Positions 3,729 through 37,200 of a stretch of 64,000 nucleotides of DNA are shown piece after piece. Every line of letters starts with the position of its first letter. Position 1 is the first letter of the stretch. Origin of the DNA: Blastococcus tunisiensis (GTDB lineage Bacteria > Actinomycetota > Actinomycetes > Mycobacteriales > Geodermatophilaceae); assembly GCF_900112815.1 (NCBI RefSeq), contig NZ_FOND01000009.1, positions 62,001 to 126,000 of the forward strand. Reading direction: 5' to 3'. Both the position numbers and the translations under genes were made by a program. The notes beneath the pieces were generated by a model. The model had not been told where the DNA came from. It made no database searches and saw nothing but the letters and a program-made list of their open reading frames with translations.

Positions 3729-4270
3729 TCGGACGCCCCCGGCGCCGGGTGCTCGTGCTCGGCGGCGCGCGGTCGGGCAAGTCCTCCTACGCCGAGGGGC
3801 TGCTGAGCCGCGAGCGCTCGGTCGACTACGTGGCCTGCGGCCTCCGGCCGGACGACGACGACCCCGAGTGGGCCGACCGGGTCGCCCGGCACCGGGCCCG
3901 CCGTCCCGCGTCCTGGACCACCGTCGAGACCATCGACCTGCTCGACGTGCTGGGCAGTCCCGGACCGCCGGTGCTCGTCGACTGCCTGACCACCTGGCTG
4001 GCCCGGGTCATGGACGAGTGCGCGGTGTGGACCGGCGACCCCGGTTCGGACGCGCGGCTGGCCGCGGCCGTCGACGACGTCGTCGGCGCCTGGGCGAGCA
4101 CCCGCCGGCGGGTCATCGGCGTCAGCAACGAGGTCGGCTCCGGGATCGTCCCGGCCACGCCGTCGGGACGGCGGTTCCGCGACGAGCTGGGCGTGCTCAA
4201 CGCCCGGATCGCCGCGGCGTCGGACCGGGTGTGGCTGGTGACCGCCGGTCTGCCGCAGCGGCTGCGGTGA
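3725..4270 (+). CDS. cobU: Adenosylcobinamide kinase / guanylyltransferase
   Basis: A 181-residue enzyme of cobalamin nucleotide-loop assembly: it phosphorylates adenosylcobinamide and transfers GMP to it. Visible are the P-loop GGARSGKSSYAE near the N-terminus, the central VDCLTTW strand, and the C-terminal NEVGSGIVP motif typical of CobU. GTG 3725 is the only start that precedes the P-loop closely; the longer open frame is a shadow of other genes. cobS and cobT are not adjacent, so the pathway is split in this genome. Convergent with the next gene, with only 3 bases between the stops. Confidence 0.93.
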   Translation: MIGRPRRRVLVLGGARSGKSSYAEGLLSRERSVDYVACGLRPDDDDPEWADRVARHRARRPASWTTVETIDLLDVLGSPGPPVLVDCLTTWLARVMDECAVWTGDPGSDARLAAAVDDVVGAWASTRRRVIGVSNEVGSGIVPATPSGRRFRDELGVLNARIAAASDRVWLVTAGLPQRLR

Positions 4271-4273
4271 GGT

Positions 4274-5347
4274 TCAGAGCCTGACCACGCCGCCGTCGGT
4301 GGCGCTGCGGCGGGCCGCGTCCAGCACGGTCATCGACGCGACGGCGTCCTCCGGCTCGACCGGCACCGGCCCGAGGCCGCGTACCGCACGGGCGAAGGCC
4401 GGGTAGAAGGAGTCCCAGGCGCCGTTCTCGGTGGGCACGGTCTGCCCGTCGGCACCGCGGTAGACCTTGCCCCACCGATCGGCCGGCTCGGCTCCCCAGT
4501 CGGCACCAAGCGACGCCGGTGTCCGCCCGTCCAGCAGCAGCTCCTCCTGGGCGTCCATGAGGGTGCGGTTGACGTAGCCGCCTGCGGTGCCCGACACCCG
4601 GTACCGCGGGCCCGGAGCGCTCTGGCTCCAGCTGCCCCAGAGGTGCGACCGGGCACCGCCGGCGTGCGTGAGGGAGACGAAGACGTCGTCGTCGAGCCCG
4701 TCCTCCCGCAACCGCCACTCGGCGTACACCGACGCGACCGGCCCCAGCAGGACCAGCGCCTGGTCGACCAGGTGGCTGCCGAAGTCGAGCAGCGTGCCAC
4801 CGCCGGAAGCTCCGGGCCCGGTCCCGGGGGCCATCCGCTCGAAGCGGGACTCGAAGCGCACGACCTCGCCCAGCTCGCCGTCGGCGACGAGCCGCCGGAC
4901 GGTCAGGAAGTCGGAATCCCACCGCCGGTTCTGGTACGGCGACAGCGGCAGGTCGAGCCGGCGGGCCAGGTCCACGGTGCTCCGCGCCGCCGCGGCGTCG
5001 AGGGCGAAGGGCTTGTCGCAGACGACCGCGAGCCCGAGCTCCAGCGCCCGGTCGGTCAGCTCGCTGTGCGTCGTGGCGGGCGTGGAGATGGCCACCGCCT
5101 CCGCGCCGGCGGCGGCGAGCTCCTCGAGCGAGCCGAAGGTGCCGCGGCCGGGGGAGTCCTCCGCCACCAGCGCGCGCCGCTCGTCGGAGGACGTCACGAC
5201 CCCCAGGAACTCGCACTCCGGCGCGGCACCGATCAGCGGCGCGTGGAACCACCGCCCGCCGAAGCCGTAGCCGACGAGGCCGAAGCGGACGGGCGGGGAG
5301 GGGACGGCGGGGCTGGTGGTCATCGACCGATTCTCGCCGACGCTCAT
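4274..5347 (-). CDS. Gfo/Idh/MocA family oxidoreductase
   Basis: A 357-residue NAD(P)-dependent dehydrogenase. The Rossmann motif GLVGYGFGGRWFHAPL is followed by the family's CDKPFALD motif (EKP-like lysine) and the C-terminal domain with GSHLVDQAL. The ATG at 5347 overlaps the upstream permease stop as ATGA, favouring coupled translation; ATG 5323 (eight residues shorter) is an alternative with a weak ribosome site. Pairing with an amino-acid/amine permease suggests a catabolic or uptake-linked role, but the substrate is not evident. Confidence 0.9.
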   Translation of the reverse strand: MSVGENRSMTTSPAVPSPPVRFGLVGYGFGGRWFHAPLIGAAPECEFLGVVTSSDERRALVAEDSPGRGTFGSLEELAAAGAEAVAISTPATTHSELTDRALELGLAVVCDKPFALDAAAARSTVDLARRLDLPLSPYQNRRWDSDFLTVRRLVADGELGEVVRFESRFERMAPGTGPGASGGGTLLDFGSHLVDQALVLLGPVASVYAEWRLREDGLDDDVFVSLTHAGGARSHLWGSWSQSAPGPRYRVSGTAGGYVNRTLMDAQEELLLDGRTPASLGADWGAEPADRWGKVYRGADGQTVPTENGAWDSFYPAFARAVRGLGPVPVEPEDAVASMTVLDAARRSATDGGVVRL

Positions 5348-25304: not shown

Positions 25305-27148
25305 TGGATGTGCGCTCCTTCGCGGACGGTGGGCAGGGTCTCCCGCCACCGGCTGGTGATGGGCAGGCGCCGGTCCCGGCCGAACGCCTTGAGGCTGATC
25401 TTGGTACCAGGTGCCGACTGGCGGCGCTTGAACTCCGCGGCGTCCACCAGGCGGAGGACGCGGGCGACGACGTCCGGGTCGTGCCCGCGCTCGAGCAGCT
25501 CGGCCATCCCGAGGTCGCGGTCGACGTAGTCGGCGACGACGGCGTCGAGCTCCTCGTAGGAGGGGAGCGAGTCGCTGTCCTGCTGGCCCGGGGCGAGCTC
25601 GGCCGACGGCGGCTTGTCGATGGAGCGCTGGGGGATGGGCTCCACCTCCCCGCGCGAGCGCGCGTGCTCGTTGCGCCAGCGGGCGAGATCCCACACCAGG
25701 GTCTTCAGCACGTCCTTGATCGGCGCGAAACCGCCGGCGGAGTCGCCGTAGAGGGTGGAGTACCCGACGGCGACCTCGCTCTTGTTGCCGGTGGTGAGCA
25801 GCAGGTGCCCGTGCTGGTTGGACAGCGCCATCAGCAGCGTGCCGCGCACCCGTGCCTGGAGGTTCTCCGCCGCGAGGCCGGTCAGCTCGGTCGCCCCGTG
25901 GAAGGCGTCGACCATCGGGGCGATCGGCACCACCGACCAGTGCAGGCCGATCCGCGTCGCGAGGTCCTCGGCGTCGGCGAGGGAGTGGTCGCTGGACCAC
26001 TTCGACGGCAGCCCCACCCCGTGCACCCGGTCGGCACCGAGCGCGTCGGCGGCCAGCGCCGCGACCACCGCGGAGTCGATGCCGCCCGAGAGGCCCAGCA
26101 CCACCGAGGGGAAGCCGTTCTTGTCGATGAAGTCGCGCAGGCCGAGGACCAGCGCCCGCCACACCTCCTCGCAGTCGGCCAGCGGCTCCGCGACCGTGCC
26201 GGGGCGCGGGGGGAAGGCAGGCACCGGCTGGTCGGAGACCGTGTGCCGGGTGACCGTCATCGGGCCGAGCCGGCCGTCGCGGCGATCGCTCACCGCAGCG
26301 GGGTCGACGGCGAGGTCCACGGTGAGCAGGTGCTCGACGAACTGCGGCGCCCGGGCCAGCAGCGTCCCGTCCGCGGCGACCACCATGGAGTCGCCGTCGA
26401 AGACCAGTTCGTCCTGCCCGCCGACCTGGTTGCAGTAGACGATCGGGGCCCCCGCCTCGGCCGCCCGCCGGCGCACCATCGGCAGCCGCAGATCGTCCTT
26501 GGCGCGCTCGTAGGGCGAGGCGTTCGGGGAGACGACGAGATCGACGCCGGCGCGGCCCGCGACCCCGCACGGACCGCCCTCGACCCACAGGTCCTCGCAG
26601 ATGGTCAGCGCGACGTCCACGCCGTGCAGCCGGACGACCGGCAGCTCGGTGCCCGGGACGAAGTGCCGCGCCTCGTCGAAGACGCCGTAGTTCGGCAGGT
26701 GCCGCTTGTAGTAGTGGGCCACCACCCGCCCGCCGTGCAGCAGGGCGGCGGCGTTGCGGGGCGTGCCGGTGCGGGGGTTGGCGTCGCCCGGCAGCTCGGC
26801 GTCGTCCTCCCGCTCCCCGCCCTGCGCCGCGGCCGCCGGGCCCGGGGCGCCGTCCGCGCTGTGCGCCAGGTAGCCGACGACGACGGCGACCTCCGCCAGG
26901 CCCTGCTCGGCCAGCGTGCCGGCGAGCTCGGCGACCGCGCGCTCGCTGGCCTGGCCGAACGACTCGCGGAGCACCAGGTCCTCGGCCGGGTACCCGGTCA
27001 GCGTCATCTCCGGGAAGACCACGAGGTGCACGCCGTCCGCGGCGGCCCTCGCCGTCCAGGTGGTCACCAGGTCGGCGTTGCCCGCCAGATCCCCGACCCG
27101 GGTGTCGATCTGGGCCAGGGCCACGCGCAGCTGCAGCTGATCGCTCAC
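25301..27148 (-). CDS. nadE: Glutamine-dependent NAD+ synthetase
   Basis: A 615-residue two-domain enzyme. The N-terminal glutaminase (nitrilase fold) has its triad in [10 protein letters not shown] (Glu), [14 protein letters not shown] (Lys) and [12 protein letters not shown] (Cys). The C-terminal synthetase has the ATP-pyrophosphatase P-loop [15 protein letters not shown] and [14 protein letters not shown]. An Ala/Gly/Glu-rich insert of about 30 residues lies in the glutaminase domain. GTG 27148 was chosen as the start of the first strand; CAGACT lies 7 bases upstream. Coupled to panB, linking CoA and NAD synthesis in one transcript. Confidence 0.96.
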
Positions 27149-27266
27149 GGCGACCAGTCTGGTCGTCCGGTGGAGCACTCGCCCAGGCGGGGCGGGGATG
27201 CCCGTTCCCGGCCGACCGGCGGCGAGCGGGCTGCCGGCCGCGCGTCGACCCCGGGGCCCTCGCGCG

Positions 27267-28286
27267 CTAGCGACTGCGCGGCGTGTTCCGGTGAGGGGCG
27301 AGGGCTCCGCGCGGCACGATCGCGATGGGCCCTGCGGCGCCGGCCAGCAGGGTCCGGCTGATCGAGGGGAGAGCTGCCCCGAGGGCCCTCCCGCGCATCC
27401 GAGACCCCACGACGACCAGTGCGGCACCGGGGGAGCCCAGGATCAGCGCCGACGCCGGGTCGCATGGCACCACCTCGGTCTGCACGGGGACGTCCGGGTA
27501 GAGCGCTCGCCAGGGGGCGACCACGGCCTCCGTGAGCGCGCGGGCGCACGCCTCGCTCGTCGGGGCGGGCGCGCACATCCCTTCCAGGTCCGCAGGGTGG
27601 TCCGCGGTCCACGCGTGGACCGCGGTGACGCCGACGTGGCGCCGGCGGGCGGCCCGGAATGCGAAGGCGACGGCGGCCTCGGACCTGTCGGTGCCGTCGA
27701 CGCCGACGACGACCGGAGGCGGTCGACCGTCGTGGTGGTCGGCCGGTGCGCCGTCGTGGATCACCGCCACCGGGCAGTGCGCCGAGGCGGTGAGTCGCGA
27801 CGGGACCGAGCCCTGCACCAGGCGGCGGATCCCGGTCCACGACGGGCCGGGCGCGCCCAGCACCAGCAACCGGGCGTGCGTGCTCTCCCGGCGCAGCACG
27901 TGGCTCGCGGGCCCCGGGAGCAGGCAGGCGGACACCTCGAGAGCGGGGGACGTGCGACGGGCCCGCGCCGCGGCGGCGTCGAGGATCTCGGCGGCCGCCT
28001 GGTGCAGGTGGGCCGCCGGATCGCCCGGGACGACGCCGAAGAGGTCCGGCGTGACCGGGTACCGGACGACGTGGACGAGGCGCAGCATGCTGCCCATGGC
28101 CGCGGCCTCGGCGGCGGCCCACTCGACGGCGGCCGGGGCGCCGTCGTTCCCCACCCCCACGAGCACGGGGCAGGACAGGGTCTGCAGTCCGGACATCGAC
28201 GGGTGGATCGAGCGGGCGAAGGCGGCGTCGGAGAGCAGGTCCGCCTCGAGCTGGGAGGCGGTGCGGCGTTCGGCATCACTGAGCAC
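27267..28286 (-). CDS. Tandem universal stress protein
   Basis: A 339-residue protein with two UspA domains. The first (VLVGVGNDGAPAAVEWAAAEA ... VLGAPGPSWTGIRRLVQGSV) keeps most of the ATP-binding GxxG...GS pattern; in the second (VVVGVDGTDRSEAAVAFAFR ... VVGSRMRGRALGAALPSIS) the final Gly-Ser is lost, so only one domain may bind ATP. GTG 28286 is preferred because GGGGAGG lies 6 bases upstream; GTG 28292 overlaps that site. Divergent from a MarR regulator across about 96 bases, which may control it. Confidence 0.88.
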   Translation of the reverse strand: MLSDAERRTASQLEADLLSDAAFARSIHPSMSGLQTLSCPVLVGVGNDGAPAAVEWAAAEAAAMGSMLRLVHVVRYPVTPDLFGVVPGDPAAHLHQAAAEILDAAAARARRTSPALEVSACLLPGPASHVLRRESTHARLLVLGAPGPSWTGIRRLVQGSVPSRLTASAHCPVAVIHDGAPADHHDGRPPPVVVGVDGTDRSEAAVAFAFRAARRRHVGVTAVHAWTADHPADLEGMCAPAPTSEACARALTEAVVAPWRALYPDVPVQTEVVPCDPASALILGSPGAALVVVGSRMRGRALGAALPSISRTLLAGAAGPIAIVPRGALAPHRNTPRSR

Positions 28287-28324
28287 GAGCACCCTCCCCA
28301 GCGCGGCACCGTCGAATGCATGCG

Positions 28325-28339
28325 TATCGTAACCCGATA
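28325..28339. promoter_or_regulatory. Candidate MarR operator
   Basis: A perfect 5-base inverted repeat, TATCG-N5-CGATA, lies in the most AT-rich part of the divergent region between the universal stress gene and the MarR gene. Autoregulation and control of the stress gene is inferred. Confidence 0.4.
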
Positions 28340-28382
28340 TTTCGACGTCATCAGGGTCCTCCGTCCGTGGTCTGATGGCGTT

Positions 28383-28814
28383 GTGGCACTCGACGACCCC
28401 TCGGCCGGCGTGCCGCTCGGCAAGCAGGACTTCGAGGCGCTGGCCCGCTTCCGGTTCGGCATCCGCCGCTACCTGCGCTTCAGCGAGGAGACCGTCCGTC
28501 GGCACGGGCTGACCCCGCAGCAGTACCAGCTGCTGCTGGCCCTCAAGGGTTTCCCGGAGAGGGACTGGGCGACGGTGGGGGAGCTGGCCGACCGTCTGCA
28601 ACTGCGGCACCACAGCGTCGTCGAGCTGGTCGACCGGGCGCAGGGTCAGGGCCTCGTGCAGCGAGCGCCCGACCCCGCCGACGCCCGGGTCGTGCGCGTC
28701 CTCCTGACCACCCAGGGCGAGCAGATGCTCGGACGGCTCAGCGCGCTGCACCGCGACGAGCTGCGCCGGCTGGACACGGCACTGGTCCCGCCGACCTGGC
28801 GTGCGCCGGACTGA
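28383..28814 (+). CDS. MarR-family transcriptional regulator
   Basis: A 143-residue winged helix protein. Helix PQQYQLLLALKGFPERDW, the recognition region VGELADRLQLRHHSVVELVDR and the wing DPADARVVRVLLTTQGEQML are typical. GTG 28383 is chosen; ATG 28320 would extend the protein across the operator-like repeat with non-homologous residues. MarR proteins usually sense small aromatic or oxidative signals and repress a divergent gene, here the tandem universal stress gene. Confidence 0.87.
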   Translation: MALDDPSAGVPLGKQDFEALARFRFGIRRYLRFSEETVRRHGLTPQQYQLLLALKGFPERDWATVGELADRLQLRHHSVVELVDRAQGQGLVQRAPDPADARVVRVLLTTQGEQMLGRLSALHRDELRRLDTALVPPTWRAPD

Positions 28815-28846
28815 TCAGCGAGGGAACCCGTGCGGGGCTGTTTCGG

Positions 28847-28868
28847 CAACTCTTGTTGGTTCTAGACT
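28847..28868 (+). promoter_or_regulatory. Promoter and operator-like site of the SufR-like gene
   Basis: The 20-base stretch 28847-28866 contains CAAC-N4-GTTG and ends in TTGGTTCTAGA. The same pattern recurs at 29600-29619. TAGACT at 28863-28868 is a TANNNT -10 element exactly 6 bases before the ATG at 28875, implying a leaderless mRNA and a site overlapping the -10, consistent with autorepression. Confidence 0.55.
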
Positions 28869-28874
28869 CGAGGC

Positions 28875-29558
28875 ATGGAGGAGGACCGTCGCTCGGCGGG
28901 CGTCGCGGCGGTGGCCGCGCTCGCCGAACCGACCCGGCGGCGGCTCTACGACCACGTGGTCCGCCAGGCGTCTCCCGTCGGCCGGGACGCCGTGGCGGAG
29001 GCGCTGGACGTGCCGCGGGCGACGGCCGCGTTCCATCTCGACCGGCTGGTCAGCGAGGGTCTGCTGGACGTCTCCTTCGAACGGCGCTCGGGCCGCACCG
29101 GCCCCGGGGCCGGCCGACCCGCCAAGCTGTACCGGCGGTCGGAGTGCTCGGTGACGGTGTCCCTGCCCGGGCGCAGCTACGACCTGGCCGGTGACCTCCT
29201 GGCGGCCGCGCTCGTCGAGGCGGAGCGTTCGGGCGAACGTCCCGCCGCGGTCCTGCACCGCGAGGCGTTCACGCGTGGTCGGGAGCTCTCGGCGGGCGCC
29301 TCGGGCGGTGGCCGGGACGCCGTGCTCCGGATGCTCGAGCTCCACGGGTTCGAGCCCCGCGACGAACGTGGCGCGGTCGCGCTGGCCAACTGCCCTTTCC
29401 ACGCTCTGGCGCAGCAGCACACCGAACTCGTCTGCGGGATGAACCTGCGGCTCCTCGAGGGGGTCCTGGACGGCGCCGGCGACATCGGGCTGACCGCCGA
29501 GCTGCGGCCCGAGCCGGGCCGGTGCTGCGTGCGTCTGGAGCCGGCCGTCCGGGCGTGA
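28875..29558 (+). CDS. SufR-like winged-helix regulator with Cys cluster
   Basis: A 227-residue regulator. The N-terminal winged helix (AALAEPTRRRLYDHVVRQ, DAVAEALDVPRATAAFHLDR) resembles SufR/ArsR-type proteins. The C-terminal part has Cys173, Cys187, Cys217 and Cys218 (NCPFHALAQQH, LVCGMN, GRCCVRL), a spacing close to the Fe-S ligands of SufR, so an oxygen-, NO- or iron-sensitive cluster is likely. The start is ATG 28875, 6 bases after a -10 element. Upstream of the DoxX-folE-reductase operon, with a shared operator-like sequence. Confidence 0.85.
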   Translation: MEEDRRSAGVAAVAALAEPTRRRLYDHVVRQASPVGRDAVAEALDVPRATAAFHLDRLVSEGLLDVSFERRSGRTGPGAGRPAKLYRRSECSVTVSLPGRSYDLAGDLLAAALVEAERSGERPAAVLHREAFTRGRELSAGASGGGRDAVLRMLELHGFEPRDERGAVALANCPFHALAQQHTELVCGMNLRLLEGVLDGAGDIGLTAELRPEPGRCCVRLEPAVRA

Positions 29559-29568
29559 CGCCGCGGTG

Positions 29569-29619
29569 TTGACAGCAGGGTGACGCAGGTCTCTACTTCT
29601 AACCATCATTGGTTTTAGA
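29569..29619 (+). promoter_or_regulatory. Promoter with overlapping operator, doxX-folE operon
   Basis: A consensus -35 TTGACA (29569-29574), a 17-base spacer and TCTACT (29592-29597) form a strong housekeeping-type promoter. The expected start point falls inside 29600-29619, which contains AACCA-N4-TGGTT and matches the site before the SufR-like gene at 13 of 20 positions, including an identical TTGGTT. Binding there would block transcription. Confidence 0.6.
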
Positions 29620-29630
29620 AGGAGCCCATC

Positions 29631-30083
29631 ATGACGATCCACCTGAACCGTTCCCGGCCACCGTCCGGACGTGCACCCACCGCCGCGGACCCGGCTCACC
29701 AGGCGTTCGTCCTGCTGCGGACGGTCTTCACCGTGGCGCCGATCGCCTTCGGCCTGGACAAGTTCACCGGCCTGCTCGCCGACTGGCCGCTGTTCCTGGC
29801 GCCCTGGCTCGACGAGCTGGTCCCCGGCACCGCGCAGCAGGCGATGTACGCGGTCGGCGTCGTCGAGGTCCTGGCGGGCGTCGCCGTCGCCGTCGTCCCC
29901 CGGTTCGGTGGCTGGCTGGTGGCTGCCTGGCTCGGCGGGATCATCCTGAACCTGCTGACGATCCCGGGCTTCCACGACGTCGCGCTGCGGGACTTCGGCC
30001 TGCTGGTCGCGGCCGTCGCCCTCGCCCGCCTGGCGGTCCGCTACTCGCCCGGCGCTCGCACCGATACCGCCCCGCGCGCATGA
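29631..30083 (+). CDS. DoxX-like membrane protein
   Basis: A 150-residue protein with four predicted membrane helices (LLRTVFTVAPIAFGLDKFTG, VVEVLAGVAVAVV, LVAAWLGGIILNLLTI, LLVAAVALARLAV), matching DoxX/DUF417-type families that take part in redox or thiol-stress complexes. Ribosome site AAGGAG before ATG. Its stop overlaps folE in the ATGA arrangement, so it is the first gene of a three-gene operon. Confidence 0.83.
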   Translation: MTIHLNRSRPPSGRAPTAADPAHQAFVLLRTVFTVAPIAFGLDKFTGLLADWPLFLAPWLDELVPGTAQQAMYAVGVVEVLAGVAVAVVPRFGGWLVAAWLGGIILNLLTIPGFHDVALRDFGLLVAAVALARLAVRYSPGARTDTAPRA

Positions 30084-30700
30084 CCGCGGCGCAGTCGCTC
30101 ACGGCGCCGACCACCGGCCGGTTCCGCGTCCTCCGGGACCGCACCGCCGTGGACGTGCCGGCCGCGGAACGAGCGGTGGCCGACCTGCTGCGGGCGCTGG
30201 GCCGAGATCCGGAGGGTCCGCACCTGACCGGAACCCCGCGCCGCGTGGCGGCGGCCTTCACCGAACTGCTCAGCGCTCCGCACTTCGACCTGACGACCTT
30301 CCCGAACGACGAGGGCTACGACGAGCTGGTCCTCGCCACGGCGATCCCCGTCCAGTCGCTCTGCGAGCACCATCTCCTGCCCTTCTCCGGAGTGGCCCAC
30401 ATCGGCTACCTCCCCGGTGACCGCATCCTCGGGCTGTCCAAGCTCGTCCGGGTCCTGGACCTCTTCGCCCGCGACCTCCAGGTGCAGGAGCGGCTCACCC
30501 GGCAGGTCGCGGACTGGCTGCAGGAGAACCTCGCCCCCCGAGGTGTGGGGGTCGTGATCGAGGCGGAGCACCTCTGCATGTCCCTGCGCGGAGTTCGGGC
30601 CCGTGGCGCCCGGACGACGACGTCGGCACTGCACGGGCTGCTCCGGGACGACGGTCGCTCGCGGCAGGAGTTCTTCGCACTGACCGGGATCGGAGGGTGA
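30080..30700 (+). CDS. folE: GTP cyclohydrolase I
   Basis: A 206-residue type I enzyme converting GTP to dihydroneopterin triphosphate. The Zn ligands are visible in QSLCEHHLLPFSG (Cys, His) and AEHLCMSLRG (Cys), and the GTP-contacting HIGYLPGDRILGLSKLVR is intact. It is out of place here: no other folate genes are nearby and it sits in a redox-type operon under a SufR-like regulator, so it may be a second, stress-induced copy. ATG overlaps the DoxX stop. Confidence 0.95.
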   Translation: MTAAQSLTAPTTGRFRVLRDRTAVDVPAAERAVADLLRALGRDPEGPHLTGTPRRVAAAFTELLSAPHFDLTTFPNDEGYDELVLATAIPVQSLCEHHLLPFSGVAHIGYLPGDRILGLSKLVRVLDLFARDLQVQERLTRQVADWLQENLAPRGVGVVIEAEHLCMSLRGVRARGARTTTSALHGLLRDDGRSRQEFFALTGIGG

Positions 30701-30705
30701 CCGCG

Positions 30706-31935
30706 ATGTCCGGATCCGAACCGTTCGTGATCGTCGGCGGTGGGCTGGCCGGCGCGAAGGCCGCCGAGACCCTGCGCGCCGAGGGCTTCGACGGGCATGT
30801 GGTGCTCGTCGCCGCCGAGGCGGAGAACCCCTACGAGCGGCCACCGTTGTCGAAGGGCTACCTGCTCGGTGCCGAGGACAGGGACGAGGCGCGGGTGCAC
30901 GACAGCGGCTGGTACGAGGCGCACGACGTCGACCTGAGGACCGGCGTCCGGGCCACGCGGCTCGACGCCGCCGGGCACCGTCTGGAGCTCGAGGCGGGGC
31001 AGGGGCTGAGCTACGCGAAGCTGCTGCTGGCCACCGGGTCCTCCGCGCGCCGGCTCCCCGTGCCCGGCGCAGACCTCGAGGGGGTCGGCTACCTGCGCAC
31101 GCTCGCCGACGCCGACCGGCTCCTCGCCGACCTCTCCGGCGGCGGCCGGCAGGTCGTGGTCGTCGGCGCCGGCTGGATAGGCCTCGAGGTGGCCGCCGCC
31201 GCGCGCCATCACGGGAACGCGGTCACCGTCGTCGAGCCGCAGCCCACCCCGCTGCACGCGGTGCTGGGGCCGGAGATGGGCGCCGTGTTCGCCCGGCTGC
31301 ACCGCGACCGGGGCGTCGACCTGTTCACCGACACGACGGTGCGCGAGTTCCGGGGGACCGGCGGCCGCGTCACCAACGTGGTCACCGACCGCCATGCCGG
31401 GCTGCCCGCCGACGTGGTCGTCGTCGGCATCGGCGCCGTCCCGAACGTCGAGCTCGCCGCCGCTGCGGGACTGGAGGTGGACAACGGCGTCGTCACCGAC
31501 CACGCCCTGCGGACGTCCGCACCGGACGTCTTCTCGGCGGGTGACGTCGCCTCGGCCTTCCACCGCCGCTACGGCCGGTACGTCCGGGTGGAGCACTGGG
31601 CGAACGCGCTCCACCAGGGGCCGGCCGCTGCCCGGTCGATGCTCGGCCAGGCCGTGGACTACGACCGCGTGCCGTACTTCTTCACCGATCAGTACGACCT
31701 GGGCATGGAGTACTCGGGCGTGGGCGGTCCGGGCGACGAGGTGGTCTGCCGCGGGAACGTCGAGGGGCGGGAGTTCATCGCGTTCTGGCTGCAGGACGGC
31801 CGGATCACCGCGGGGATGAACGTGAACGTCTGGGACGTCACCGAGCCGATCCAGCAGCTCATCCGGGCGCGCCGGCACGTACCGGTCGCCGCCCTCACGG
31901 ATCCGGACACGCCCCTGGACCGGCTCGCGGCCTGA
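30706..31935 (+). CDS. FAD/NAD(P)-dependent ferredoxin reductase
   Basis: A 409-residue reductase of the BphA4/rubredoxin reductase group: FAD motif IVGGGLAGAKAAETLRAEGF, NAD(P) motif VVVGAGWIGLEVAAAARHHG, second FAD motif DVFSAGDVASAFH, and the C-terminal reductase domain. ENPYERPPLSKGYL is the family hallmark near the flavin. ATG 30706 has GGAGGG 8 bases upstream; GTG 30697 overlaps the folE stop. No ferredoxin gene is adjacent, so the electron acceptor is unknown. Confidence 0.92.
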   Translation: MSGSEPFVIVGGGLAGAKAAETLRAEGFDGHVVLVAAEAENPYERPPLSKGYLLGAEDRDEARVHDSGWYEAHDVDLRTGVRATRLDAAGHRLELEAGQGLSYAKLLLATGSSARRLPVPGADLEGVGYLRTLADADRLLADLSGGGRQVVVVGAGWIGLEVAAAARHHGNAVTVVEPQPTPLHAVLGPEMGAVFARLHRDRGVDLFTDTTVREFRGTGGRVTNVVTDRHAGLPADVVVVGIGAVPNVELAAAAGLEVDNGVVTDHALRTSAPDVFSAGDVASAFHRRYGRYVRVEHWANALHQGPAAARSMLGQAVDYDRVPYFFTDQYDLGMEYSGVGGPGDEVVCRGNVEGREFIAFWLQDGRITAGMNVNVWDVTEPIQQLIRARRHVPVAALTDPDTPLDRLAA

Positions 31936-32038
31936 CAGCCGGGCGGCCCCACGCCCACGCCGCACGGGACACGCCGCCCATGGGAAGTGGTGTGCTCCTC
32001 GCCCGGAAGGGGCAGGCTTGGGGCTCCCAGAAGGCGCT

Positions 32039-32054
32039 GTCACATCCCGGAAAC
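32039..32054 (+). promoter_or_regulatory. Half GlnR box before glnA2
   Basis: GTCAC-N6-GAAAC (32039-32043 and 32050-32054) matches the two-site GlnR half box exactly. It lies only 24 bases before the glnA2 ATG, so it would overlap the start of transcription. The neighbouring 11-base steps do not match. Confidence 0.4.
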
Positions 32055-32077
32055 GAGCGGACGCGATCATGCCGAGC

Positions 32078-33418
32078 ATGGACCGACAGCAGGAGTTCGT
32101 CCTGCGGACCCTGGAAGAGCGCGACATCCGGTTCGTCCGGCTGTGGTTCACCGACGTCTCCGGCTACCTCAAGGCCGTCGCGGTGGCACCGGCCGAGATC
32201 GAGGCGGCGTTCGCCGAAGGCATCGGCTTCGACGGCTCGGCGATCGAGGGCTTCGCCCGGGTCTACGAGTCCGACATGCTCGCCAAGCCCGACCCGGGCA
32301 CGTTCCAGGTGATGCCCGCCCCCAAGGGCAGTCCCAGCGACACCGCGCGGATGTTCTGCGACATCACCCTGCCCGACGGCTCGCCCGCCTGGGCCGACCC
32401 CCGGCACGTGCTGCGGCGGACGCTGGCCAAGGCCGCCGACATGGGCTTCACCTTCTACACCCATCCCGAGGTCGAGTTCTTCCTGCTGAAGAACCTGCCC
32501 GCGGACGGCTCGCCCCCGGAGCCGGCCGACACCGGCGGCTACTTCGACCTGTCCACGCACAACGTGGCGCACGACTTCCGGCGCGAGGCGGTGTTCGCGC
32601 TGGAGGCGATGGGCATCTCGGTGGAGTTCAGCCACCACGAGGTCGCCCCGGGCCAGCAGGAGATCGACCTGCGCTACGCCGACGCGCTGTCGATGGCCGA
32701 CAACATCATGACGCTGCGGCACGTGGTCCGGGAGGTGGCGCTCACCCAGGGCGTGCACGCGACGTTCATGCCCAAGCCGTTCACCGAGCTGGCCGGCTCG
32801 GCGATGCACACCCACCTGTCGCTGTTCGAGGGCGACCGCAACGCCTTCCACGACGCCGCGGACCCCATGCGGCTGTCGACGACCGGCAAGCAGTTCATCG
32901 CCGGGCTGCTCACCCACGCCCGCGAGTACACCGCCGTGACCAACCAGACGGTGAACTCCTACCGGCGGCTGCTGGCCGGCACCGAGGCGCCGACCGCGGC
33001 GACCTGGGGGCGGGCCAACCGGTCGGCGCTGGTCCGGCTGCCCTCCTACAAGCCCAGCAAGGCGCAGTCGGCCCGCGTCGAGGTGCGGTCGCCGGACTCC
33101 GCATGCAACCCGTACCTGACCTTCGCCGTCCTGCTCGCCGCGGGCCTGCGGGGGATCGAGAAGGGCTACGACCTGCCGCCGGAGGCCGAGGACGACGTGT
33201 GGTCGCTCACCGACACCGAGCGGCGCGCGGCCGGGTACGAGGACCTGCCGGTGTCCCTCGGGGAGGCGCTCACCGCGATGCAGGGCAGCGAGCTGGTCGC
33301 CGAGACGCTCGGGGAGCACGTCTTCGAGCACTTCCTGCGGAACAAGTGGGAGGAGTTCAACTCCTACCGCCAGAACGTCACGCCGTTCGAGCTGCGCCGC
33401 TACCTGCCGGGCCTGTAG
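32078..33418 (+). CDS. glnA2: Glutamine synthetase, GlnA2 type
   Basis: A 446-residue class I synthetase. It begins MDRQQEFVLRTLEERDIRFV and has the same length as mycobacterial GlnA2, which supports ATG 32078 over ATG 32069. Metal and substrate motifs are seen: GFDGSAIEGF, PEVEFFL, GSAMHTHLS, NSYRRLL and the C-terminal KGYDLPPEAED carrying the adenylylation Tyr. It forms a set with the amidotransferase and glnE that follow; GlnE would adenylylate that Tyr. Whether it makes free glutamine or another gamma-glutamyl product is not evident. Confidence 0.95.
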   Translation: MDRQQEFVLRTLEERDIRFVRLWFTDVSGYLKAVAVAPAEIEAAFAEGIGFDGSAIEGFARVYESDMLAKPDPGTFQVMPAPKGSPSDTARMFCDITLPDGSPAWADPRHVLRRTLAKAADMGFTFYTHPEVEFFLLKNLPADGSPPEPADTGGYFDLSTHNVAHDFRREAVFALEAMGISVEFSHHEVAPGQQEIDLRYADALSMADNIMTLRHVVREVALTQGVHATFMPKPFTELAGSAMHTHLSLFEGDRNAFHDAADPMRLSTTGKQFIAGLLTHAREYTAVTNQTVNSYRRLLAGTEAPTAATWGRANRSALVRLPSYKPSKAQSARVEVRSPDSACNPYLTFAVLLAAGLRGIEKGYDLPPEAEDDVWSLTDTERRAAGYEDLPVSLGEALTAMQGSELVAETLGEHVFEHFLRNKWEEFNSYRQNVTPFELRRYLPGL

Positions 33419-33497
33419 CGGGACCGGCGTCGCCGGGGCGAGCCCGGCGCGGACCCCTGCGACGGGGCCGTCCCGGTCGCGTGCCGGCAGCGCTCAC

Positions 33498-33503
33498 TAC
33501 GCT
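33498..33503 (+). promoter_or_regulatory. TANNNT element, leaderless start
   Basis: TACGCT lies exactly 6 bases before the GTG start at 33510, the spacing seen at five other starts in this window. It implies a transcript beginning at or next to the start codon. Confidence 0.55.
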
Positions 33504-33509
33504 GCGGAC

Positions 33510-34241
33510 GTGACCCGCCTGCTCGTCGTCGTCCCCAGTGAGACCGATCCACCGGCCCGGCTCGGGAGCTGGCTGCGCACGGCCGGCCTCGACCTGGACG
33601 AGCGGCACCTCGGCGCCGGTGACGAGCTGCCCGCGGGCCTGGACGGGTACGACGGCCTGGTCCTCCTCGGGGGTCCGCAGTCGTCGACGGACGACGCCGC
33701 GACGAGCCCGGAACTGGTCGGCGTCCGCGCCCTGCTGGGCCAGGCGCTGGCGGCGGACCTGCCCACGCTCGCCATCTGCCTCGGCGCGCAGCTGCTCGCC
33801 CAGGTCGGCGGGGGCCGCACCCGGGTCGGGGTGGACGGCCCCGAGGTGGGCGCCACCCTGGTCGCCAAGCGCGACGCCGCGGACGCCGACCCGCTCTTCC
33901 GCCCGCTGCCGCTGTCGCCGGACGTCATCCAGTGGCACCACGACGAGATCTCCGAACTGCCCCCCGGCGCCACCCTGCTGGCCGGCAACCCGCACTACCC
34001 GCACCAGGCCTACCGGGTCGGGCGGCACGTCTACGGCCTGCAGTTCCACATCGAGACGACGCCGGAGATGGTCCGGGCCTGGGCCGCCTCCGACCCCGTC
34101 GGGATCGCCGCGAGCCCGCACGACCTGGAGACCGTCTGCCTGCGGGCCGAAGCGGTCCACCCGGACGTCGAGGAGGTCTGGGAGCCCTTCGCCGGCCGGT
34201 TCGCCGAGCTGGTCCGCGCCCGCGCCAGGCAGGCGGCATGA
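33510..34241 (+). CDS. Class I glutamine amidotransferase
   Basis: A 243-residue amidotransferase with Cys90 in LAICLGAQLLA and His180/Glu182 in GLQFHIETTPEM, so the catalytic triad is intact. GMP-synthase-like, acceptor domain absent. GTG 33510 has no ribosome site but a leaderless -10 element. Its stop overlaps glnE (ATGA), so it is cotranscribed with the adenylyltransferase and could affect the glutamine pool GlnE senses (inference). Confidence 0.9.
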   Translation: MTRLLVVVPSETDPPARLGSWLRTAGLDLDERHLGAGDELPAGLDGYDGLVLLGGPQSSTDDAATSPELVGVRALLGQALAADLPTLAICLGAQLLAQVGGGRTRVGVDGPEVGATLVAKRDAADADPLFRPLPLSPDVIQWHHDEISELPPGATLLAGNPHYPHQAYRVGRHVYGLQFHIETTPEMVRAWAASDPVGIAASPHDLETVCLRAEAVHPDVEEVWEPFAGRFAELVRARARQAA

Positions 34242-37200
34242 CCGCGGCCGAGGCCGAGGTCCCGCGGCGCGCGGTCGTCCGGCTGGCCCGGTTCGGGTTC
34301 GAGGACGGCGCCCGGGCGGCGGTGTTCCTGTCCGACCCGTCCCTGGGGCTCTGGGACCTCGAGCGCAACGAGCCCGCGGACCCCGAGGCCGGCCCGGTGG
34401 TGGCCGCGCTGGCCCGGGCGGGCGACCCCGATCTCGCGCTGCGGTCGCTGCACCGCCTGGTGGAGGCGCTGGACTCCGCCGATGCCTCCGGGGAGGCCGC
34501 CGCCGCGCTGCTGGCCCACCTCCGGGGTTCCGGCCTGCTGCGCAGCCGGCTGCTGTCGGTCCTGGGCGCCAGCTCGGGGCTGGCCGACCACCTGGCCGCC
34601 CACCCGGCCGACTGGACGGCGCTCGAGGATGAGGGCGAGGGCATCTTCCGCGGGTCGTCGGGCCCCTCGGCCGACGAACTGCAGCGCCGGATGCTGGCCG
34701 CCGTGGGTGCCGACCCCGACGATCCGCCGTGGGGGGTGCGCCTCGGGAAGGGCGCCCCCGACGCCTCACCGGAGCGGATCCGGGCGCTCCGCCTGGCCTA
34801 CCGCCGCGCCATCCTGTCCCTGGCCGGACGGGACCTGGGGGAGGGGCTGCCGGCCGAGGAGGCCGCGGCCGAGCTCGCCGACATCGCCGGCGCCGTGCTG
34901 ACCGCCGGCCTGGCGCTGGCGGTGGCGGAGCAACCGGCGTCGGCCGCTCCGTGCCGGCTGGCCGTCATCGCCCTCGGCAAGACCGGCGGCCGCGAGCTGA
35001 ACTACGTCAGCGACGTCGACGTGGTGTTCGTCGCCGAACCGGTCGACCCCAGCGATCCCGAGAGCGCCGCCCTGTCCAGCGCCACCCGGGTGGCGGCGGC
35101 GCTGATGCGGATCTGCCACGAGGCGGCGTGGGAGGTCGACGCTGCACTGCGCCCGGAGGGAAAGGCCGGGGCCCTGGTGCGGACGGTTGCCGGGCACCAG
35201 GCGTACTACGAGCAGTGGGCCAGCACCTGGGAGTTCCAGGCGCTGCTGAAGATGCGGCCGGCCGCCGGGGACCCCGACCTCGGGCGGGCCTACGTCGACG
35301 CGCTCTGGCCGCTGGTGTGGCGGGCCGGTGACCGCCCCGGGTTCGTCGGCGAGGTGCAGGCCATGCGCCGGCGGGTGGAGGCCAACATCCCGCCCGCCCA
35401 GGCCGAGCGGGAGCTCAAGCTCGGCCGCGGCGGGCTGCGCGACGTCGAGTTCGCCGTCCAGCTGCTGCAGATGGTCCACGGCCGGGTCGACGAGTCGCTG
35501 CGGGTCGGCGGCACGTTGCCGGCGCTGCAGGCGCTCTCGGCGGGGGGCTACGTGGGGCGGGAGGACGCCGCGACCCTGATCGCGTCGTACCGTTTCCTGC
35601 GCACCGTCGAGCACCGCCTCCAGCTGCTCCGGCTGCGCCGCACCCACCTGCTGCCCACCGACGAGCAGCAGCTGCGCTGGCTGGCGAAGTCGCTGGGGTA
35701 CAAGCCCGACCACCGCGGCGAGGCGGTGGACGTCCTGGACGCCGAGCTGACCCTGCACACCCGCGAGGTGCGCCGGTTGCACGAGAAGCTCTTCTACCGG
35801 CCGCTGCTCTCGGCGGTCGCCCGGGTGCCCGGCGAGCACCTGCACCTCGGCTCGAAGGCGGCGGGGGACTGGCTGCGCGCCCTCGGCTTCGCCGACCCCG
35901 ACGGTGCCCTGCGCCACCTGGCGGCGCTCAGCAGCGGGGTGTCCCGATCGGCGTCGATGCAGAAGTACCTGCTGCCGGTGCTGCTCCAGACCTTCGCGTC
36001 GTGCCCCAACCCGGACGCCGGGCTGCTGGCCTACCGGCAGGTCAGCGAGGCGCTGGGCGGGAACCAGTGGTACCTGCGCCTGCTGCGGGACGAGGGCCAG
36101 GTCGCCGAGCGGCTCGCGCAGCTGCTCGGCTCCAGCCAGTTCGTCGCGTCGCTGCTGACCCGTACCCCCGAGGCGCTGCGGCTCCTGGCCGACGACGAGC
36201 AGCTCGAGCCCCGGGCCGCGGCGACGCTGGCCGGTGCGTGGCGGCAGGCCGCCGGACGCGCCCCCGACCCGCAGGCCGGCATCCGCGTGCTGCGCGGGCT
36301 GCGCCGCCAGGAGCTGCTGCGGGTGGCGGCGGCGGACCTGCTCGGCCGGCTCGACGTCGTCCGGCTGGGCCACGCCCTGACCGACATCGCGGCCGCCACC
36401 CTGCAGGTCGGCCTGGACGTCGCGGTCCGCGCGCACGCCGCCGACGCCGGCCTGGACCCCGCCGACATGCCGATGGACCTGGCCGTCATCGGGATGGGCC
36501 GGCTCGGCGGGCGCGAGCTGGGCTTCGGCTCGGACGCCGACGTGCTGTTCGTCCACCGGCCGCGCGACGGCGTCGACGAGGCCAAGGCGACCGCCGCGGC
36601 CAACGCCGTCGCGCACACCCTCCGGCGGCTGCTGAGCGAGCCCGCCCCCGACCCGGCGTTCGAGGTGGACGCCGACCTGCGTCCCGAGGGCCGGCAGGGC
36701 GCCCTGGTCCGCAGCCTGTCCGCCTTCCGGGAGTACTACGAGCGCTGGGTGTCGGTCTGGGAGGTGCAGGCGCTGCTCCGCGCCGTGCCGGTCGCCGGTG
36801 ACCCGCAGCTGGGCGCCGACTTCGTCGCCATGATCGACGCCATCCGGTACCCGGCGGGCGGGCTGAGCGACGATCAGGTCGCCGAGATCCGCCGGATCAA
36901 GGCCCGGGTGGAGCGGGAGCGGCTGCCCCGGGGCGCCGATCCGGCCACCCACACGAAGCTCGGCCGGGGCGGACTGGCCGACGTCGAGTGGACCGCCCAG
37001 CTCCTACAGCTGCAGCACGCCGACGACCTGCCGGCGCTGCGCGTGCAGCCGACCGTCGACGCGCTGCACGCCCTGGCCGACGCCGACCTGCTCGGGCGGG
37101 AGGACGTCGAGGCGCTGTGCGCCGCGTGGGAGCTGGCCACCCGTGCCCGCAACGCGATCTTCCTGGTGCGCGGCCGGGCCAGTGACCAGCTGCCCCGTCC

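Follow-up and report, generated by a model that had tools for sequence, protein, structure and literature searches.

A cysteine-rich regulator and its conserved 28-bp operator linked to a DoxX-like membrane protein and a second GTP cyclohydrolase I in Blastococcus tunisiensis

A 64 000-nucleotide stretch of the 5.04 Mb genome of Blastococcus tunisiensis (contig NZ_FOND01000009.1, positions 62,001–126,000; referred to here as the window) carries a plus-strand row of four genes. They code for a 227-amino-acid (aa) regulator with a winged helix-turn-helix (wHTH) and a C-terminal cysteine domain (REG), a DoxX-like membrane protein, a GTP cyclohydrolase I (folE) and a ferredoxin reductase-type flavoprotein. 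We found that REG is conserved next to DoxX together with a 28-bp operator, TCTA-N20-TAGA, that REG has four invariant cysteines, and that this folE is the second copy in its genome and belongs to a separate subfamily. The reading that we favour, at somewhat better than even chances, is that REG acts as an iron-sulfur (Fe-S)-type repressor that releases a local operon for redox or nitric oxide (NO) stress, in which folE would serve as a spare isozyme.

The open-licence literature on DoxX with folE, with SufR or iron-sulfur and with nitrosative stress, and on stress regulation of folE, yielded no description of this unit. The available portions of PMC12161575, which treats a different DoxX, and of PMC9973013 contain nothing on it.

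Gene order and its conservation

A search for the DoxX-like protein in 61 genomes, that of B. tunisiensis included, gave a match in 12 of them. REG and folE adjoin DoxX in 11 of these 12 loci, one of which (genome G042) has a deletion in folE; the twelfth is a weak match. A scan of GTDB genomes produced 402 candidate DoxX loci, from which the best 80 were kept. The top-scoring named relatives among these 80 belong to Blastococcus, and other Geodermatophilaceae are frequent. REG is adjacent to DoxX in 67 of the best 80, so that the gene order, whose conservation the first-pass annotation of this DNA had proposed to check, is indeed conserved. These loci comprise REG-DoxX pairs (37), complete sets of all four genes (20), REG-DoxX-folE (5), REG-DoxX-reductase (5) and DoxX alone (13). 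Within the distances used, folE lies near DoxX in 25 of the 67 loci with REG and in none of the 13 without it, and the counts for the reductase are the same. Presence calls rest on tblastn, and the gene caller misplaced some starts and missed some genes. Three loci call for comment: L033, with REG only in fragments, stands among the 67 here and among the loci without REG in the operator count below; L060 has only 160 bases of upstream DNA, which makes its lack of REG uninformative; and L050 and L010 represent one genome (G042), with proteins 99–100% identical.

REG was detected at 1e-30 in 59 of the 197 genomes of the class. A REG-anchored sample was drawn as 30 loci from 72 listed places, with the B. 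tunisiensis genome left out and some genomes shared with the other samples (for example, G083 and G208). Of the 29 that were examined, 24 carry one or more of the three cargo genes within ∼ 1.5 kb, 12 have folE, and five have folE and the reductase in the absence of DoxX; this last arrangement was also found in four genomes of the same family (L159–L162). Since REG is accompanied by varying combinations of DoxX, folE and the reductase, the unit is best described as a regulator with interchangeable cargo.

The operator

The promoter of the DoxX operon consists of a -35 box TTGACA (29569–29574, plus strand) and, 17 bases further, a -10 box TCTACT (29592–29597, plus strand), exactly as the first-pass annotation had it. 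The main operator, O2 (TCTACTTCTAACCATCATTGGTTTTAGA, 29592–29619, assigned to no strand), overlaps this promoter: the -10 box serves as its left arm, and the right arm reaches the ribosome-binding site of the DoxX-like gene (29631–30083, plus strand). The promoter of REG itself carries a degenerate counterpart, O1 (28839–28866, no strand), of the form TGTT-N20-TAGA with an inner CAA-N6-TTG; the segment CAACTCTTGTTG starts at 28847, inside O1. The right arm of O1 forms the beginning of the presumed -10 element of REG, TAGACT (28863–28868), and REG (28875–29558, plus strand) has a near-leaderless start.

The TCTA-N20-TAGA pattern was found upstream of DoxX in 74 of the 82 loci with adjacent REG as compared with 1 of the 19 loci without it. 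No other spacing from 10 to 30 occurred in more than 6 of the 82 loci, and single-base shuffles, which preserve base composition only, produced it in 0.115 of the 82 loci on average and never in more than 2 (n = 200). These 101 loci, a non-random sample, come from the best 80 of the 402 candidates and from hits in 22 of 396 genomes; L116–L119 were left out, one being a weak match and the others additional hits from genomes that the sample already contained. The 74 sites represent 67 distinct sequences, and the counts ignore relatedness. The partly overlapping REG-anchored sample has the operator in 21 of 29 loci (shuffles, 0.02). In REG-folE-reductase loci that lack DoxX, the operator precedes folE instead, exactly in L160, L161 and L162 and with one mismatch in L159. 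A TTGAC-like box stands ahead of the operator in most of the relatives compared. The arms vary by lineage and tend to change together; over the 67 distinct sites, the summed complementarity of the ten inner pairs was 4.40, against a mean of 3.61 and a maximum of 4.06 in column shuffles (n = 1000; relatedness ignored).

When O1 and O2 are placed in register, 16 of the 28 bases agree, including 14 of the last 20 (counted by hand). O1 keeps the right arm and the inner CAA-N6-TTG and has a poor left arm. TAGA is located 8–9 bases ahead of the REG start in all 20 co-directional sequences compared, that of the window included, and a second exact TCTA-N20-TAGA site on the REG side is present in 3 of the 74 loci. 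The earlier proposal of an operator shared by the two promoters, with its conservation in related genomes as a check, was therefore sound in its essentials, including the overlap of the REG -10 element with the operator and the likeness of the two sites, which had been put at 13 of 20 bases. Its definition of the operator was not: CAAC-N4-GTTG proved to be merely the inner part of the 28-mer and was rejected as the operator.

The B. tunisiensis genome contains four TCTA-N20-TAGA sites, fewer than the seven sites of a reversed control, and O2 is the only one of the four with the inner-arm AA and TT. The regulon therefore looks local, and a wide regulon was rejected on these full-length sites, half-sites not having been searched.

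The regulator

The N-terminal part of REG matches the HTH_20 family (PF12840) at 37.7 bits against a cut-off of 27, and its closest solved relatives by sequence are ArsR-type repressors, across the HTH only. The structural model has a mean pLDDT of 90.3 and a pTM of 0.64. Four C-terminal cysteines, C173, C187, C217 and C218, are invariant in 11 of 11 and in 39 of 39 aligned rows, which does not hold for C91. The corresponding spacing (C, +14, +44, +45) was seen in 70 of the 82 REG proteins examined; in 11 more, the CC pair is shifted by up to three positions (+43 to +48), and one sequence is cut by the contig end.

This spacing is that of ArnR of Corynebacterium glutamicum, an actinobacterial repressor of narKGHJI and hmp with the same layout of wHTH and C-terminal cysteine domain. 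According to the available text of PMC12343034, ArnR is a [4Fe-4S] NO sensor with Cys179, Cys193 and Cys223 (+14, +44), and its dinitrosyl form loses DNA binding. Going by the published cysteine positions, ArnR has three conserved cysteines and no fourth, whereas REG has an invariant CC pair; the gene neighbours also differ, being nar and hmp for ArnR as opposed to DoxX, folE and the reductase for REG.

The first-pass annotation described REG as SufR-like. Its notion of a dedicated regulator with four C-terminal cysteines was borne out, and REG and SufR do have in common an HTH and an Fe-S-type C-terminal cysteine domain. The likeness ends with the spacing, which in SufR (Rv1460; C203, C216 and C244) is +13, +41 in the available part of PMC6034842, and with the location. 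REG lies on contig C33, whereas sufB lies on contig C39 with a SufR-type gene (L171:1497–2228) directly upstream; the product of that gene has the same cysteine spacing as Rv1460 (counted by hand) and gave no match to the REG profile at 0.001. The identification of REG as SufR was rejected on these grounds.

In the B. tunisiensis genome, the REG profile retrieved L121, the nearest paralog of REG (E = 7.5e-17), along with L122, a short HTH protein of ArsR-like type (E = 5.8e-5). The L121 gene is situated upstream of ferredoxin and narGHJI/narK-like genes, with a divergent cupin-like gene (by eye; L123, G000:C26:20000-34000, where G000 is the genome of the window), and its product, a candidate NO or nitrate regulator, has the cysteine spacing +14, +48. 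A regulator similar to L121 (above 36% identity, a cut that we chose) is encoded within ∼ 4.5 kb of DoxX in 12 of the best 80 loci, 10 of them in Mycobacterium, and 4 of the 12 have the same ferredoxin. This context favours, indirectly, a role in NO or nitrate/hypoxia physiology.

A related arrangement was noticed at L164:4065–6113, where a four-cysteine relative of REG and the gene of another small membrane protein, unlike the DoxX-like one, point away from each other; an operon-type folE comes after the latter.

A second GTP cyclohydrolase I

The folE gene of the operon (30080–30700, plus strand) codes for an enzyme of the zinc (IA) type that scores 205.6 bits with PF01227. It exceeds the cut-offs of PF01227 and of the NCBIfam subfamily models NF006826 and NF006825 and falls below those of the equivalogs TIGR00063 (179.6 versus 181.6) and NF006824 (137.2 versus 202). 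Another folE is present in the same genome (G000:C27:187228), between ftsH-like and folP/folB/folK-like genes (by eye). The housekeeping gene thus has its place in a folate-gene cluster, and the operon of the window is therefore not a folate operon, as had been claimed from the window alone, with the copy number of folE named as the check.

In a tree of 66 FolE sequences, 30 housekeeping rows fall on one side of a branch with 100/100 support and the operon-type rows on the other; the bootstrap had not converged completely, and several of the operon-type rows are long. Of the 18 operon-type folE genes in the 61 genomes, 17 adjoin a gene for REG or one of its relatives, the exception being L165; in G055 and G060 the protein counted is a relative with 41 and 39% identity, respectively. 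The 18 genes were chosen by a score band of 203–215 bits, and the tree contains just a part of this set. The genes of G044 (queuosine-type by context), G009 (broken) and G042 (deleted) were left out along with fragments, and G045 and G046 remained untyped.

The zinc ligands C95, H98 and C166 and the catalytic residues H97, S120, K121, Q136, H164 and R170, whose roles we take to be those of the E. coli FolE residues, are all present in the FolE of the window and in 27 of the 29 operon-type proteins, this one included. Such conservation points, at the level of sequence, to an active zinc-type enzyme and not to a metal-independent substitute. The two exceptions are as follows. In Kribbella catacumbae (L022:6447–6886), folE is in two pieces in different frames. 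In G042 (L010/L050), the protein lacks the stretch that holds S120, K121, R124 and Q136, and a PF01227 search found no other folE there; this deletion is either an assembly error or a case of lost activity. A further operon-type folE in pieces and different frames was seen in G009 (L168, ∼ 3890–4476), near a reductase and a sigma-like/Cys-His gene pair.

The genome of B. tunisiensis gave no match to 6-pyruvoyl-tetrahydropterin synthase (PTPS, PF01242), found by the same control search in 9 of 14 genomes, or to the pterin-dependent hydroxylases (PF00351), found in 1 of 14. Folate is hence the only known outlet found for the FolE product, other pterin routes not having been searched.

The membrane protein, the reductase and the neighbouring genes

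The DoxX-like protein (150 aa) had no Pfam or NCBIfam match at 0.001. Weak matches to Pfam DoxX (E up to 10, the best 0.00091) were obtained for 8 of the 11 aligned members, the protein of the window included, and likewise for TMEM_230_134 (8 of 11). The AlphaFold model (pLDDT 87.7) has four long helices and one short one, and its best solved fold match is the four-helix protein NACHO/TMEM35A, with a Foldseek probability of 1.00 and TM scores of 0.55/0.61 but an E-value of 0.15. TMEM35A is, we presume, itself DoxX-like. The predicted fold leans towards the original DoxX label, whereas by sequence the protein of the window scores 9.5 bits with Pfam DoxX, short of the cut-off of 23.6. Eight charged residues do not vary in any of 39 rows (R30, D43, K44, E79, R91, D116, R120 and D121). 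Viral contigs contained no relative of this protein.

The DoxX-like gene and folE are joined by a 4-base overlap (ATGA). A similar overlap had been proposed for the other end of folE and would apply only if the reductase started at GTG 30697; the preferred start is ATG 30706 (30706–31935, plus strand), which leaves a 5-base gap. The reductase consists of Pyr_redox_2 and Reductase_C domains (PF07992 and PF14759), and among solved structures its sequence is closest to those of 3lxd and putidaredoxin reductase (1q1r). No ferredoxin gene was seen beside it by eye among the genes called in 26001–36000; no family search was made and short genes may escape. At L051:7113–9572 and L080:4909–7365, the place of the usual reductase after folE is taken by two membrane proteins, one with a C-terminus of Rieske-like type and the other similar to flavin reductases (by eye).

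The row is preceded by a universal-stress-protein gene (27267–28280, minus strand) and, next to REG, a MarR-type gene (28383–28814); a glutamine synthetase gene (32069–33418) follows the reductase.

Possible mechanism and alternative explanations

We envisage REG as a dimeric winged-helix repressor of the SufR/ArnR kind, in which C173, C187 and the C217/C218 pair probably hold a [4Fe-4S] cluster. REG would occupy O2, covering the -10 box and the start of the DoxX-folE-reductase promoter, and would bind O1 more weakly and so repress its own gene. Nitrosylation or loss of the cluster would make REG release the DNA and allow the operon to be expressed. NO comes first among the candidate signals, given the ArnR spacing and the nar context, and other redox damage or iron shortage second. 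The DoxX-like protein and the reductase may then take part in redox repair at the membrane or in electron transfer, and folE, under a control of its own, may provide GTP cyclohydrolase I when damage strikes the constitutive enzyme or the folate pool. A precedent for isozymes of this kind is found in Cupriavidus metallidurans, which, according to the available text of PMC10882993, keeps several GTP cyclohydrolases I, each needed under different stresses, with the zinc-dependent IA enzyme required in the presence of hydrogen peroxide. The two extra enzymes of that organism are metal-promiscuous IB proteins, whereas the extra FolE described here retains the zinc ligands and is under a cysteine-rich regulator. 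We also considered, as an unlikely variant, that REG is an Fe-S repressor of a subfamily of its own in control of interchangeable parts, with the FolE product entering a membrane-linked redox reaction of a pterin or folate by which the signal itself is detoxified.

Several observations weigh against the proposal of an Fe-S repressor with folE as a spare isozyme. Its weakest point is that an enzyme that retains the zinc ligands may be as sensitive as the one that it would replace; the operon-type folE genes of L022, in two frames, and of L050, with its deletion, count on the same side. The +14, +48 spacing of the nar-side L121 implies that ArnR-like spacing alone does not mean NO sensing. No fold match to REG fell under an E-value of 0.001, and the four cysteines might just as well be zinc ligands or form a thiol switch. 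At the DNA level, the exact operator is missing in 8 of the 82 REG loci and in L164, five of its ten inner pairs (9, 11, 12, 13 and 14) do not exceed the shuffles at one in twenty, with pair 13-16, which is one of the five, falling short of them. The cargo can also occur in the absence of REG: L165 is an operon-type folE with no REG, at L098, which is not among the best 80, the same kind of reductase adjoins DoxX and the 3.4 kb of sequence contain no REG, so that the reductase can associate with DoxX without this regulator, and at L089 a DoxX that lacks REG has a reductase-like gene ∼ 4.6 kb away. Finally, the DoxX-like protein of the window type is found in only 7 of the 16 genomes of the genus, and folE is absent from 42 of the 67 REG-DoxX loci.

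The main rival, which strikes us as possible rather than probable, holds that REG senses zinc or the thiol redox state and that the operon answers zinc loss or electrophile/hypochlorite-type stress. It can draw on the ArsR-like HTH with its ArsR-type solved relatives, on fold matches that include ArsR, SmtB and CzrA, and on the four cysteines, invariant in all 39 rows and able to hold zinc. A sigma-like gene together with a small Cys/His protein like a zinc anti-sigma factor, divergent and upstream of the REG-less DoxX of L049, L058, L079 and L089 (by eye; three of the four are named Thermoleophilaceae or Solirubrobacterales), also fits it. Against it, the FolE paralogs that serve when zinc is scarce tend to be metal-promiscuous enzymes of the IB type, in contrast to the operon FolE with its zinc ligands, and the spacing of the REG cysteines equals that of the proven Fe-S regulator ArnR. 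An IB-type FolE is described in the available text of PMC10882993.

Two other explanations concern the purpose of folE. The first-pass annotation suggested that the operon makes a pterin, possibly as a redox cofactor; a reduced pterin would then work with the flavin adenine dinucleotide (FAD) reductase and the membrane protein. The reductase could indeed recycle dihydropterin, the catalytic residues are kept, and folE and the reductase adjoin REG in the absence of DoxX in 5 of the 29 REG-anchored loci and in L159–L162. Yet no pterin-modifying gene was seen in the unit (by eye), and the lack of PTPS and hydroxylase matches, along with that of folE from the 42 loci just mentioned, leaves the idea poorly supported and, in our estimate, quite improbable. 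Just as little credence is given to a plain extra folate supply under a nutritional cue, with the neighbours there by chance: judged by its sequence, the enzyme is an ordinary GTP cyclohydrolase I, and cargo with no REG does exist (L098, L089 and L165), but REG or a relative accompanies nearly all operon-type folE genes (17 of 18), and the housekeeping copies form a clade of their own.

For a DoxX-type membrane protein of no known role, the unit thus names a regulator, a 28-bp operator that is conserved and a signal that can be tested. In several families of actinobacteria, it also connects a cysteine-rich regulator with a folE subfamily of its own. Should REG prove to be an Fe-S repressor, redox state or NO would directly control the entry to folate synthesis.

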